A stretch of DNA of 28,211 nucleotides. Origin: a virus. The stretch is from positions 1 through 28,211 of the IMG/VR virus record IMGVR_UViG_3300042006_000265. One strand, 5' to 3'. Position 1 is the first letter of the stretch, and every line of letters starts with the position of its first letter. The position numbers and the translations under genes are program-made. Of the stretch, positions 23,399 through 28,211 are shown one piece after another. The notes under the pieces are model-generated. The model was not told the origin of the DNA and ran no database searches. It saw nothing but the letters and a program-made list of their open reading frames with translations.

Positions 23399-24559
23399 AT
23401 GTCAGCAGGACTAGAAATACGCGGAAAATCGTTAAGGATTTGGATGCGTCCGGTACCAACAGAACCAGTGATAAAAGAGACTTTAGATTGGGAGTTTACC
23501 CCTGAAAATCAGAGTAAAGCGGAGAAGCTTGCCAATTATATTAAGTTAGAAATTCAACTTGGCCAGTTTAATCTTGCTAAGCATTTTCCAAATTCTAAAC
23601 ATTTAAAGAAGAATCAAATTAGCTATTATGCACAGCTTTATTTGAGCCAGACGATTAAGGAAGTTGCCCCTAGTACATTCGATTCATACAAAGGTCATGT
23701 TTATAACCATATCCTTCCTAAATGGGGCCAGACAAATCCTAAAGACATCAATACAAATATGTTAAAGAAATGGATTGAGGCGTTAAAAGAGAATTTAAAT
23801 AACAAGACTGTCCGAGAAATTGTCACACGTTTTTCTCAGATCCATGCAATCTGGCGTGATGAAAGGCAAATGCCATATAACCCATTTGAAAATATCGTAA
23901 TTCATCAAGTCGATACTCCAGAGCCTGATCCGTTCAGTAAAGTCGAAATTGCCATGATTTTAAATACTGAGACAGACTTAGATATTCAAAACTTACTGCC
24001 TTGTTTATTCTGGACGGGGCTTTCAATGTCGGAACAAATCCCGATTGCATGGGAAGATATTGATCTTGAGAAAGGGACTATTCAAATTTCGAGATCTTAT
24101 GTCCGGGGAATTTACCGGGTGACTAAAAACAGAAGAAGAAAGCGGAGAATCAAGTTACTCGAACCGGCAATTACTGCGTTAAAAAAACAATATCAACTCA
24201 CTGGTAATGCTCGAGCAAAAACAATCGAAGTACTTCAGCGTGATAACAAAACAAAGCGAACTGAAAAAGTCCGTTTTGTATGGATTAATCCCGAACGGTC
24301 GAACCACTTTGAATATCATGAATTACGGTACCGCTGGAACAAACATTTAAAGAAAGCAAAAGTACGTAAACGTGGTATCAATCAGGGACGCCATACATTT
24401 GCTAGTCAACTTCTAACGTCTGGCCAAGTCCCCCCGGAGTGGATTGCAGAGCAACTTGGTCATAGTGATACATCAATGATTTATAAACATTATGGAAAAT
24501 TAATTGCTGAAGATATGCCTGATTACATAACGAAGCTGAATAATTACATCATGATGTAA
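23399..24559 (+). CDS. int: Tyrosine integrase
   Basis: The 386-residue site-specific recombinase starts with an arm-binding domain (LEIRGKSLRIWMRPVP), then a core-binding SAM-like domain (about residues 75-165) and the catalytic domain. Catalytic Arg II and the following His are in GRHTFASQ, box III is EQLGHSDTSMIYKHYG, whose Tyr is the nucleophile. Box I reads TGLSMSEQ where TGLRxSE is usual, so Arg I is not at its normal place, and the box II His is Asn (INQGRH). The gene lies just before the tRNA-His fragment, so that is its likely attachment site. AGGA precedes the ATG. Confidence 0.9.
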   Translation: MSAGLEIRGKSLRIWMRPVPTEPVIKETLDWEFTPENQSKAEKLANYIKLEIQLGQFNLAKHFPNSKHLKKNQISYYAQLYLSQTIKEVAPSTFDSYKGHVYNHILPKWGQTNPKDINTNMLKKWIEALKENLNNKTVREIVTRFSQIHAIWRDERQMPYNPFENIVIHQVDTPEPDPFSKVEIAMILNTETDLDIQNLLPCLFWTGLSMSEQIPIAWEDIDLEKGTIQISRSYVRGIYRVTKNRRRKRRIKLLEPAITALKKQYQLTGNARAKTIEVLQRDNKTKRTEKVRFVWINPERSNHFEYHELRYRWNKHLKKAKVRKRGINQGRHTFASQLLTSGQVPPEWIAEQLGHSDTSMIYKHYGKLIAEDMPDYITKLNNYIMM

Positions 24560-24608
24560 TAAAAGACTACTTTAAAAATACTTCAAAATTTACATTCAAC
24601 TTTTTTTT

Positions 24609-24638
24609 AAGTGCTTAGAACTCTAAGCACTTTTTTTT
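24609..24638. terminator. Terminator after the integrase gene
   Basis: AAGTGCTTAG and CTAAGCACTT pair perfectly around AACT, with eight T on each side, so it can work in both directions. Confidence 0.93.
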
Positions 24639-24826
24639 AATTATTACTACCTTACTTCAACTTTGGGGATAACCCGTAGATTTATAAATAAAGATCATCA
24701 ATCAGAGCGATCAAATAAAAAGCTTTATTTCATCCTTTAATACTACTTCATTCCCATATTCGGTACTTTTAGCTTTTTAGTATTCTTTAAGTTGTTAATT
24801 TATATTAAAATAGGTCTGAAATTGTG

Positions 24827-24854
24827 GTGGGTTCGAATCCCGTCATTCACCCCA
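24827..24854 (+). other. tRNA-His 3' fragment, integration core
   Basis: GTGGGTTCGAATCCCGTCAT followed by TCACCCCA is the T arm, acceptor strand, C discriminator and CCA end of a bacterial tRNA-His. The upstream sequence does not continue into an anticodon arm, so no complete gene exists here. A phage carrying such an end restores the host tRNA on integration. Confidence 0.85.
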
Positions 24855-24858
24855 ATTT

Positions 24859-24935
24859 CGGAGCATAGCACAGCCTGGTAGTGCACCTGGTTTGGGACCA
24901 GGGGGTCGTAGGTTCGAATCCTACTGCTCCGACCA
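24859..24935 (+). tRNA. tRNA-Pro (UGG anticodon)
   Basis: A complete 77-base tRNA: acceptor CGGAGCA/TGCTCCG, D arm with GCCTGGTAG, anticodon stem CCTGG/CCAGG with loop TTTGGGA (anticodon TGG), T arm GTAGGTTCGAATCCTAC and encoded ACCA. It begins 4 bases after the tRNA-His end, the order found in argX-hisR-proM type clusters. It may be the native host copy or one carried by the phage. Confidence 0.97.
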
Positions 24936-25155
24936 TATTGTTGAATTATATAAGAAAATTATCCTCTAGTTTTCTATACAATCCCTAGATTAATCCTCTT
25001 ATTAGCCGTAAGCATTACTTTGCTCAGTGTCTTAATAAGTCTGTTTTAGTCAATTTCTATTCCCATTTCATTCCCATCAAAATTCTTTTCAAAGTTTAAA
25101 AACTAGTCAAAATCATCTGTTTTTTAGATCAAGAAAAAAGTTGGGGAGTACCGAA

Positions 25156-25418
25156 AATTTGAAGTAATAAAGTAATATTTTATAAATATAATAATAATTT
25201 CAATATCTTATACAAGTTTTCAAATGAAATAATTTAGTAATTCTCAGGTAATTTAATACTGTATACAAAGGTATTGTATCTCTAAAAATCTTGTTAATAA
25301 AATCAAATACTTATATTTTATTACTTATGAAATTACAAAAAATTACCTTTAAATGTAATAATATTTATTTTTAATTTTCATGTAGTTAAGATAGTTTCTT
25401 ACTTTATTACTTCAAATT
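25156..25418. repeat. 20-bp perfect inverted repeat, 223 bp apart
   Basis: AATTTGAAGTAATAAAGTAA at 25156-25175 is the exact reverse complement of 25399-25418. Each arm contains the TTACTTCAA motif also found left of the attachment core. Confidence 0.85.
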
Positions 25419-25428
25419 AAAGTCCTAC

Positions 25429-25483
25429 CTGAAAAAAGGTTTTATATTTGTGTCATAAAACTGAAAAAGGTTTTATTTATGTC
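25429..25483 (+). repeat. Two direct repeats 32 bp apart near cos
   Basis: CTGAAAAA(A)GGTTTTAT followed by TTGTGTC or TTATGTC occurs at 25429-25454 and 25461-25483. The spacing is about three helical turns, suggesting a protein-binding array, possibly for terminase or integrase. Confidence 0.65.
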
Positions 25484-25624
25484 CTTTTTAGATCAGATAT
25501 GTGGCGTGTAGTAAAATGCAGTAGTCTTTTTTCACTTAATTAGCTGTGAAGCCCACGTAATGGCGCTTATTGCAGCCTAATTTCACCACTTTTGGCCTTG
25601 CAGTAAAACGGTCCTACATAGAGA

Positions 25625-25655
25625 CCGCAGGTGGGGCGGGCAACTGCGCGGCGGC
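25625..25655. other. Candidate cos (cohesive end) site
   Basis: This 31-base patch is almost all G and C (with GGTGGGGCGGG and ACTGCGCGGCGG) in strongly AT-rich DNA. From memory, the P2 cohesive end is a 19-base G+C-rich sequence, GGCGAGGCGGGGAAAGCAC followed by TGCGCG; this patch has a similar G run then ACTGCGCG. In P2, cos lies just beyond gene Q, as here. The cut positions cannot be assigned. Confidence 0.45.
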
Positions 25656-25716
25656 TACAAGAGGCAAAAGAATGTTGTGGATAGATTAGAAACAAGTGTG
25701 GATAAGTTCAGACAAC

Positions 25717-25744
25717 AAAAAAGCCAGCATTTGCTGGCTTTTTT
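25717..25744. terminator. Bidirectional terminator after hicB
   Basis: AAAAAAGCCAGC pairs perfectly with GCTGGCTTTTTT around ATTT. It ends the leftward hicAB transcript before the cos region. Confidence 0.93.
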
Positions 25745-25759
25745 GTTTGGATCAATTGA

Positions 25760-26173
25760 TTATGCAACAACAATATCGAGATCTTTACCTAATGCATTAA
25801 ATGCACTTTCGATAGATTCCAATTTTGTTGAATGTTTTAACGATAGTAAACGATCAGCTTGCTTTTGCAGCCAACCAAGTCGACGAGCTAGTTCAGCTTT
25901 AGTTACATTTTGAGAAATCATCTCATTATATAAACGTACCTTCGCTGCTACTCGTACTGGAAGATGAACTTCGTATTCAACTTTCTTTACTTTCGTTGGT
26001 AATGGAATCAATTCTCTTTCATCCATATAGATTTCAAATGTGGTTTCTATACCATCCAATGCTTCCGCCAAAGCCTCATCCAAAGAATAGCCCACACTAT
26101 TTAATAGAGGGAGATCACGTGAAGTGACTATAAAAGCCTCTCCTTCACGATTGATCTTTACGCCATATTTCAT
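25760..26173 (-). CDS. hicB: HicB antitoxin with C-terminal helix-turn-helix
   Basis: The 137-residue antitoxin would bind and neutralise HicA and repress the operon. The N-terminal partial RNase H-like domain has YGVKINREGEAFIVTSRDLP and LDEALAEALDGIETTFEIYM; the C-terminal helix-turn-helix is VTKAELARRLGWLQKQADRL. It follows hicA after an unusually long gap of 98 bases. That gap has an exact TATAAT (minus strand, 26208-26203) but no good -35, so a separate antitoxin promoter is possible. A strong terminator lies 16 bases after the stop. Confidence 0.92.
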   Translation of the reverse strand: MKYGVKINREGEAFIVTSRDLPLLNSVGYSLDEALAEALDGIETTFEIYMDERELIPLPTKVKKVEYEVHLPVRVAAKVRLYNEMISQNVTKAELARRLGWLQKQADRLLSLKHSTKLESIESAFNALGKDLDIVVA

Positions 26174-26271
26174 TTCCCACTGCTCTCTTAATTAATTATT
26201 AAATTATAATTTGTGAAAAAATTCACTGGTGATGATGATGAAGAGTAGCCTAGCTACATAGGATTTGAGAC

Positions 26272-26451
26272 TTAAAGTCCCAAATCCTTTTTGATTTTTA
26301 AACGAGTGCCTTCAGGAATTTCTTTTTTCCCATGGTTAGGGAAAACAGTCTTCTTACCGTTAAATTCAATAATCATGTGTGATCCCTTACCTTTACGCAC
26401 AAAGATAACTCCATGTGCAATTAGCCATCGTTTAAACTCGTTGTAGCTCAT
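26272..26451 (-). CDS. hicA: HicA toxin (mRNA interferase)
   Basis: The 59-residue toxin starts MSYNEFKRWLIAHGVIFVRK and carries the catalytic His in KGKGSHMII, with PNHGKKEIPEGTRLKIKKDL at the end, all typical of the double-stranded-RNA-binding-like HicA fold that cuts mRNA. The start at 26451 is chosen because GGGGC lies 6 bases upstream and the family length is about 60; the frame is open to 26508 but runs through the promoter. In a prophage, the pair could stabilise the element or defend against other phages. Confidence 0.92.
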   Translation of the reverse strand: MSYNEFKRWLIAHGVIFVRKGKGSHMIIEFNGKKTVFPNHGKKEIPEGTRLKIKKDLGL

Positions 26452-26460
26452 AAGCTGCCC

Positions 26461-26474
26461 CATGTTTAAACATG
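26461..26474. promoter_or_regulatory. 14-bp perfect palindrome in the hicA leader
   Basis: CATGTTTAAACATG lies between the promoter and the hicA ribosome site. It could be a regulator site or a small leader hairpin. Confidence 0.5.
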
Positions 26475-26797: not shown

Positions 26798-27847
26798 TTA
26801 CTGTGATTTTTTCAAATCATATTCTTTAAATCGAATTAATTCTATGCCAGTTATTTCATTAATTTGTGAAAGTCTTGCTTGTAATGGCATGATCTCATTG
26901 TGATAGAAAACATCAGCTGCATCCATCACAGAACCAAAGCCTCCAGTATTGTTTGGAACTATCCCCATAAGTTGAGGTGGAATACGCAAAGAGGCAAGGA
27001 CATCATCACGAGTAATAGATTTAATATTTGCAAAGTCATCTTTTGCAGCTATCTCTGACACTGGAATGATTTGGACACCATCTTTTTTTCCGTTAGGACT
27101 ATAAAAGAATAAATTACGGAAATTACCCGGCCCTTTACTGTTCTTTAATGCTTCTCGCAAATTATCAATATCCTTTGGGTCATTGGCTGGATCATTCACA
27201 TACATAATAAACCCTGCATGACTGCCATTATTATAGTATTTACGACGGAATAACGTTGCTGATTCATTCAGCCATGCACTTTGTAGAGTTGCGATGTATT
27301 CAGGTTTGCCATAAATCTCCTGATCAATATCAGATTCTCTCACATGAATAATTCGCCCTTCAGGAAATTCGTATTCTGAATACCCAAGATGATCATTCGT
27401 TATCATGAAATAACGGTTGTCTTCGCCAACTCGCATATATTTAGAGAGGCTAGGTTTGAATTTAATAGTTCGTTTAGTAACAGATCTGATTTCTTCTAAA
27501 TATGTATTGCCTGACCAAATAAAATCAAACACCACTTGTTCAAAAGCAGGGCGGCTTAAAAGAGGATGTGGTTTAAATAAATTTACAAGGAAGTTCCGTT
27601 TATAAATAATTCCACTTGAAAGGTATGGCGTAGAACTGAAAGATTTTGATAACCCAGCAAGACTAACAGCAGGTTCAAACCAACGACCATTAAACCAACA
27701 TTCCGCATATTGTGATAATTCATTTCCATCTAAGACTGGAACAGGGTCTCCAAATGTAAAAGCTTCTGTTCTTCCACGTGGACCAACGGTCTGGACCTGT
27801 GTTGAAAACGTGTTGAAGGCAGATTTTAAAAGCTGCATAGGTTTCAT
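26798..27847 (-). CDS. Q: Portal protein gpQ
   Basis: At 349 residues this is close to P2 Q (344). The portal ring sits at one capsid vertex and passes DNA during packaging and ejection. Typical family features are the start with EAFTFGDPVPVLDG and ECWFNGRWFEPAVS, the segment IIHVRESDIDQEIYGKPEY, MYVNDPANDPKDIDNLREAL, and IPPQLMGIVPNNTGGFGS near residue 290. The ATG overlaps the terminase stop (ATGA), as in the P2 PQ operon, which also runs leftward toward cos. Confidence 0.96.
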   Translation of the reverse strand: MKPMQLLKSAFNTFSTQVQTVGPRGRTEAFTFGDPVPVLDGNELSQYAECWFNGRWFEPAVSLAGLSKSFSSTPYLSSGIIYKRNFLVNLFKPHPLLSRPAFEQVVFDFIWSGNTYLEEIRSVTKRTIKFKPSLSKYMRVGEDNRYFMITNDHLGYSEYEFPEGRIIHVRESDIDQEIYGKPEYIATLQSAWLNESATLFRRKYYNNGSHAGFIMYVNDPANDPKDIDNLREALKNSKGPGNFRNLFFYSPNGKKDGVQIIPVSEIAAKDDFANIKSITRDDVLASLRIPPQLMGIVPNNTGGFGSVMDAADVFYHNEIMPLQARLSQINEITGIELIRFKEYDLKKSQ

Positions 27848-28211
27848 TGGTAAATCTCCAAGATCGATGAATTTGATAAATTTGTGCCTTCAAGAGGTTC
27901 ATTGTATACGGCATGCATAAGTGCCCATGCCAAATCAGCGTGACCGATTTCTTCAGATCGACCTGCTGTAAAAGTCATTTGACGCTGGCTTGCAGTAAGT
28001 GTTTTTTTAATACTCATAAGAGATTGAGCGATATCTGTATGACCAGCATCAAACTCAAGACGACCATTACGAATGACATCAAGTGTTTTTAATACAAGCT
28101 GGGTTTTTACCTCTGGGCTATAACTAAAAGTCGTAAGGCTCGGGAAGAATTGGCGGACCAATTGCGCAACGCCTGTTCCCATACCTGTAGTGTCTAGGCC
28201 GATATACGTGA
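27844..28211 (-). CDS. P: Terminase large subunit gpP, C-terminal part
   Basis: The frame is open to the window edge, so the ATPase domain lies outside; 121 residues of the C-terminal nuclease domain are seen. YIGLDTTGMGTGV carries the first catalytic Asp of the RNase H-like nuclease. VKTQLVLKTLDVIRNGRLEF and the terminal GHADLAWALMHAVYNEPLEG, with another catalytic Asp, match the P2 family. The protein cuts concatemers at cos and drives packaging. It overlaps the portal gene by four bases. An ATG at 28182 is internal and not the start. Confidence 0.95.
   Translation of the reverse strand, partial: TYIGLDTTGMGTGVAQLVRQFFPSLTTFSYSPEVKTQLVLKTLDVIRNGRLEFDAGHTDIAQSLMSIKKTLTASQRQMTFTAGRSEEIGHADLAWALMHAVYNEPLEGTNLSNSSILEIYQ

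Follow-up and report, generated by a model that had tools for sequence, protein, structure and literature searches.

The window analyzed here, which is the whole stretch of DNA under study, is a virus record of 28,211 bases that carries the genes of a P2-like phage. Pfam searches assigned tail sheath, tail tube FII, GPD, portal, and terminase genes, as well as a D12 methyltransferase, and the P2-type tail, portal, and terminase genes with their P2-like order across cos point, by gene content, to a member of the Peduoviridae. The features around the attachment region follow one another in the order integrase, terminator, attachment core, tRNA-Pro, arm sites, cos-like site, and portal/terminase. 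The integrase gene (23399–24559, plus strand) encodes a tyrosine-family integrase of 386 aa (Pfam Phage_integrase, PF00589, E 4.4e-13; Arm-DNA-bind_2, PF12167, E 1e-11) and lies beside attP, 269 bp from the core. Its relatives in Acinetobacter and Alkanindiges prophages are 66–98% identical, and they led us to the Acinetobacter lysogens described below. An intrinsic terminator with a 10-bp stem and a T-run lies between the integrase gene and the core (24609–24632, plus strand) and is the only terminator-like site within 24300–25800; similar hairpins were seen by inspection in the relatives, and phage phiCTX has an annotated terminator at the same place.

The attachment core comprises the 26-nt 3' end of tRNA-His, GGGTTCGAATCCCGTCATTCACCCCA (24829–24854, plus strand), which is identical to the host tRNA-His. 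It is followed on the same strand by the spacer ATTT (24855–24858), which is phage-borne as judged from the attL and attR spacers of two lysogens, and by a complete tRNA-Pro(UGG) gene inside attP (24859–24935, plus strand). A complete tRNA-Pro four bases past the tRNA-His end had been proposed by an earlier sequence-only reading of this DNA, and both ARAGORN (TGG anticodon) and Rfam (RF00005, 68.5 bits, E 1.7e-14) called the gene, which rules out a chance tRNA-like match.

That reading had also pointed to candidate arm sites and a cos-like patch, and both were recovered. A candidate P-arm integrase site, ATTCCCAT, lies at 24750–24757 (plus strand), 79 bp before the core, and the same motif is found 77–79 bp ahead of GGGTTCGA in 16 of the 18 loci examined. 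Two further copies of ATTCCCAT, at 25059 and 25070 and thus 11 bp apart (25059–25077, plus strand), are candidate P'-arm sites; an identical pair is present in the related loci L252, L257, and L258, and positions 25060–25079 are 100% conserved in the midst of poorly conserved flanks. The P' region also contains a 20-bp exact inverted repeat of the GAAGTAATAAAGTAA type (25156–25175 and 25399–25418). The putative cos-like site, GGTGGGGCGGGCAACTGCGCGGCGGC (25630–25655, plus strand), corresponds to a pattern of GGTGGGG(C/T)GGG and then (C/T)AACT that occurs in 8/14 related left ends, and it was compared with the cosR region of phiCTX, GGCGTGGCGGGG.

Beyond the cos-like site, the genes of the phage left end lie on the minus strand. 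The portal gene (26798–27847; Pfam Phage_portal, E 3.1e-15) and the partial gene of the terminase large subunit, which runs off the window (27844–28209; Terminase_6C, E 3.9e-23), are both present in the same orientation in the left ends of all 14 other contigs or prophages compared. The presence of portal and terminase genes here was correctly anticipated, but the distance of 1.9 kb from the integrase was slightly off, since the portal coding sequence begins ~2.2 kb after the integrase gene and a HicB-like antitoxin ORF (25760–26173, minus strand; HicB-like_2, E 2.5e-11) lies nearer. With a small HicA-like ORF upstream of it, found by inspection, this ORF fills 25760–26463 between the cos-like site and the portal gene, and such HicB-like/HicA-like toxin-antitoxin cargo is carried by only some relatives (left ends L252, L254, and L256).

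The tRNA operon in prophage-free and lysogenic Acinetobacter

Acinetobacter genomes without the prophage have nadA, tRNA-Pro, tRNA-Arg, tRNA-His, and tRNA-Pro in this order, and then host DNA. In prophage-free Acinetobacter baumannii, nadA is followed by tRNA-Pro, tRNA-Arg, tRNA-His, 4 bp, and a second tRNA-Pro, and then by add on the opposite strand. Positions 24822–24939 of the window match the His-Pro part of this cluster with 98.3% identity over 118 bp, which is far beyond chance. The two tRNA-Pro genes of the A. baumannii operon are identical to each other, and nothing else in the 3.66-Mb record NZ_CP077849 matches the query. Host genes at 24936–25600 in prophage-free strains had been named as the observation that would overturn phage carriage of the tRNA-Pro; when this was checked, other DNA was found to follow tRNA-Pro in those strains, and past 24939 the window matched only phage left ends. 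Two public records titled "Acinetobacter phage MD-2021a" (CAKLQF020000034 and CAKLQH020000046) look mislabelled: the stretches read are host chromosome and include argJ, nadA, and genes for copper resistance.

In lysogens, the order is Pro-Arg-His-Pro, the prophage with the integrase gene at its far end, the 3' end of tRNA-His, tRNA-Pro, and host DNA. At attL the full Pro-Arg-His-Pro cluster leads into phage DNA, and at attR the integrase gene is followed by the tRNA-His 3' end, tRNA-Pro, and the host chromosome. The core is identical to the 3' end of a host tRNA, and every lysogen with a left end that was read has a complete tRNA-His at attL. Such lysogens occur in A. seifertii, A. calcoaceticus, A. 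tandoii, A. junii, and others, and the prophage ends are 36.9–41.4 kb apart. We searched 176 Acinetobacter genomes for His-Pro junctions, and each of the 10 that carry a related integrase at this site had at least two of them, either at prophage distance or on separate contigs. Across this genus set, the remaining genomes with a match had one His-Pro junction or tight host tandems, and none had junctions spaced 37–41 kb apart. A control junction, tRNA-Ser-Arg, gave one match per genome in 166/166 genomes having that junction. Two or more His-Pro junctions in the lysogens against single control matches indicate that the prophage duplicates tRNA-Pro. The complete downstream tRNA lies inside the block shared by attP and attB and is found at both prophage ends in the 10 genomes. 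The tRNA-Pro copy number of an Acinetobacter strain depends on the prophage.

Two His-Pro units only 235–276 bp apart were found in ten genomes (G042, G134, G137, G148, G151, G164, G169, G186, G193, and G200). These pairs are too close together for a prophage and are host tandem duplications. Native duplication of this kind was considered as a source of all repeated junctions and rejected, because the tight pairs explain neither the pairs 37–41 kb apart nor the junctions in which the integrase gene, core, and tRNA-Pro run into phage DNA.

Position of the crossover and origin of the operon's tRNA-Pro

The spacer between tRNA-His and tRNA-Pro differs between the two ends of the prophage in two lysogens. 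In G023 it is CAAA at attL and CTCTTTTAAAGAGAGTAT at attR, and the long spacer CTCTTTTAAAGAGAGTAT is also present in the prophage-free genome G199, which is 100% identical to the host flanks of G023 (886 bp and 60 bp). In A. junii G007 it is CAAA at attL and CTCTTTTATAGAGTAAT at attR, and CTCTTTTATAGAGTAAT is likewise found in the prophage-free genomes G048 and G174, the flanks of G048 being 92–96% identical to those of G007. Because the attL and attR spacers differ and the attR spacer is of the host type, the exchange took place 5' of the spacer. The bases right before GGGTTCGA are of the host type at attL and of the phage type at attR, and this switch places the exchange 3' of position 24828. 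The crossover thus falls in the ~26 nt at the 3' end of tRNA-His; the operon is left with the phage-borne tRNA-Pro, and the copy beside the integrase gene is the displaced gene of the host. A crossover after tRNA-Pro is ruled out by the spacers of both lysogens. The sequence-only reading was right that the phage carries tRNA-Pro and that the operon stays intact, but its proposal that both tRNAs are replaced holds in part, since only the 3' ~26 nt of tRNA-His are exchanged and the host tRNA-Pro is not lost but shifted to the far end, behind the terminator.

As that reading had also suggested, the window crosses either attP or a tandem-prophage junction, which agrees with the attL/attR pairs and with two further loci, L065 and L075, where the integrase gene, core, and tRNA-Pro run into the phage left end as in the window. 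Among these three, the 110-bp block at 24829–24938 is invariant, while the P arm is 55–64% and the P' arm 53% identical, and phage-calling tools can misplace the prophage boundary by ~110 bp. L065 sits on contig G016 together with a second junction in which the integrase gene, core, and tRNA-Pro lead into host DNA. This contig is a tandem double lysogen, with the integrase gene, tRNA-His 3' end, tRNA-Pro, and phage left end preceding another integrase gene, tRNA-His 3' end, tRNA-Pro, and host DNA, and it provides an example of what the window could be if it spanned the junction of two tandem prophages. The sequence would then be the same as that of a free attP, and the phage would still carry tRNA-Pro. 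We give a tandem junction a sizeable minority chance; no point speaks against it, the 28.2-kb window stops short of a second copy, and it does not conflict with our main reading.

By contrast, we reject as extremely improbable an alternative that the sequence-only reading had raised, in which the tRNA-Pro in the window is a host gene at attR and an unrelated second prophage has entered directly behind it. The tRNA-Pro next to the integrase gene at attR of lysogens is indeed the host's, but the window has no host DNA after tRNA-Pro, and its portal/terminase side is the left end that follows the attL tRNA-Pro in 14/14 left ends. One and the same prophage, in A. seifertii NIPH 973, has matches on either side of the junction (integrase 96%, terminase 98%, HicB 90%, portal 85%), and the invariant block stops just past tRNA-Pro in both L065 and L075, which contradict this alternative together with the attL spacers.

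The spacers may also hold a record of earlier prophages. It is possible, although we think it unlikely, that gain and loss of phages repeatedly rewrote the end of this tRNA operon across Acinetobacter and that switches of the spacer are the scars. With each integration, phage versions of the tRNA-His 3' end, spacer, and tRNA-Pro would be put in place of those of the host, and recombination between the two tRNA-Pro copies would remove the prophage but leave the phage spacer behind. On a tree of the upstream host region, in which many forks are weakly supported, the spacer changed between short and long 11 times; these changes are suggestive of scars, and indels could give the same pattern. The genomes G070 and G199, which group in the tree and have related host DNA downstream, differ in the spacer (CAAA in G070 against an 18-nt hairpin-like spacer in G199), and G070 may bear the scar of a lost prophage.

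Further observations concern other loci. In IMGVR_UViG_2663762643_000006, a 70% identical integrase lies at the 3' end of a tRNA-Ser match that is followed by two complete tRNA-Arg(ACG) genes. For this second operon, tRNA-Ser-Arg-Arg, the contig contains attR only, and no other lysogen was found in the 176 genomes or in IMG/VR. In A. guillouiae (G004, contig C8, 299500–307882), ~8.2 kb separate the two tRNA-Arg genes of the Ser-Arg-Arg cluster, and the gap is perhaps another inserted element. An Alkanindiges prophage has two successive similar tRNA 3' fragments ~246–420 bp after its integrase gene, which look like stacked attachment sites.

Role of the carried tRNA and comparison with known systems

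We are highly confident that the window represents either the attP of an Acinetobacter P2-like phage or the equivalent junction between tandem prophages, that this phage exchanges DNA within the 3' end of tRNA-His, and that its tRNA-Pro keeps the host operon whole. The mechanism that we propose builds on the observed gene content, the duplication, the crossover interval, and the phage origin of the attL copy. The integrase recombines the ~26 nt at the 3' end of the host tRNA-His with the identical stretch of the phage, which brings along the short spacer and the complete tRNA-Pro situated between the crossover and the P' arm. After integration the operon again reads Pro-Arg-His-Pro; the phage now provides the tRNA-His end as well as the spacer and tRNA-Pro, and the attL tRNA-Pro would be transcribed from the promoter of the host operon. 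The host tRNA-Pro comes to lie at a distance of ~37–41 kb, past the integrase terminator, and is probably silent there; the tRNA-Pro of the free phage would be silent too, since a terminator stands ahead of both and no promoter-like site was found on the tRNA-Pro strand from the integrase gene to tRNA-Pro by a promoter scan that is weak in AT-rich DNA. Given its placement between the integrase gene and cos, tRNA-Pro is probably packaged in the virion. Selection for an intact operon would retain the carried gene.

The carried tRNA-Pro is intact and identical at 77/77 positions in 14/14 copies of the attL or attP type, and the one mutated tRNA-Pro seen, a single case, belongs to the displaced host copies and comes from A. 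calcoaceticus. An identical tRNA-Pro is also the first gene of the same operon, so it does not follow that the phage copy is essential; what it preserves may be gene dosage or the processing of the operon, not viability. The perfect identity could also have been kept by recombination with host copies and not by functional selection. In its full form, this would make the long identity an extended recombination target maintained by homologous exchange, with tRNA-Pro a passive part of it that brings no benefit to the lysogen. The identity with the first gene of the operon fits passive carriage, and so does the uniformity of all phage-side copies, as recombination would produce it. Yet the His-Pro spacers of phage and host differ in two lysogens, which shows that exchange has not fully evened the block, and the gene has stayed intact in every attL- or attP-type copy. 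We regard passive carriage as rather unlikely.

Temperate mycobacteriophages that integrate at tRNA genes bring a tRNA gene that matters on integration (PMC10865867), and the Acinetobacter phage resembles them in carrying a tRNA gene next to attP and in using a tyrosine integrase. In those phages the target tRNA is destroyed and the phage tRNA has the same isotype (PMC10865867), whereas here tRNA-His is rebuilt at attL and the carried tRNA (Pro), which follows the target (His) in the operon, differs from it in isotype; the core spans at least ~26 bp, and the cell keeps a second tRNA-Pro(UGG). We therefore judge it highly improbable that lysogeny depends on an essential phage tRNA in the same sense.

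In our collection of phages, the closest integrase is that of the Pseudomonas phage phiCTX (Peduoviridae, Citexvirus; 41.5%), which shares the order integrase-terminator-attP core-cos and has arm repeats on both sides of the core whose motif, TTCCCA, resembles ATTCCCAT. Unlike the window, phiCTX has a 30-bp core and an attP without a complete tRNA, and its P' repeats lie ~100 bp from the core start, compared with 230 bp in the window, where tRNA-Pro intervenes. In relatives at other tRNA ends (L016, L110–L112, and L117), the core on the integrase side is likewise not followed by a complete tRNA (ARAGORN covered L016 and L111), and they can serve as natural controls.

The same architecture is found in the Haemophilus phages HP1 (Peduoviridae, Hpunavirus) and S2, which we checked from sequence records. 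Their attP also lies between the integrase gene and cos and combines the 3' part of an upstream tRNA-Leu with a complete downstream tRNA-Lys, as it combines His and Pro here. The annotation of S2 lists a complete tRNA-Lys and a partial tRNA-Leu in attP and notes that this portion is almost identical to attB. HP1 carries the same tRNA-Lys, and in an HP1-type lysogen contig (G210) the two prophage ends, separated by 32.2 kb, each have a complete tRNA-Lys(TTT). Around 1990, Hauser and Scocca reportedly described the position of the HP1 site within a cluster of tRNA genes. HP1 and S2 differ from the Acinetobacter phage in the tRNAs involved and in a shared block of ~180 bp (361–539 in the S2 record), and the HP1 integrase has almost no similarity to that of the Acinetobacter phage by BLASTP, which suggests that the arrangement arose more than once, with independent origins in the two groups. 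We found no report of this attachment site in Acinetobacter in the open-access library searched. A tRNA-carrying attP is already known from HP1 and S2, and the present case adds a second example, seen across a genus, in which direct evidence shows that the tRNA-Pro of the operon came from the phage. With a different integrase and in another group of hosts, P2-like phages that enter in the middle of a tRNA operon bring the rest of it with them, and preserving complete operons, beyond repair of the split tRNA alone, seems to recur as a solution.
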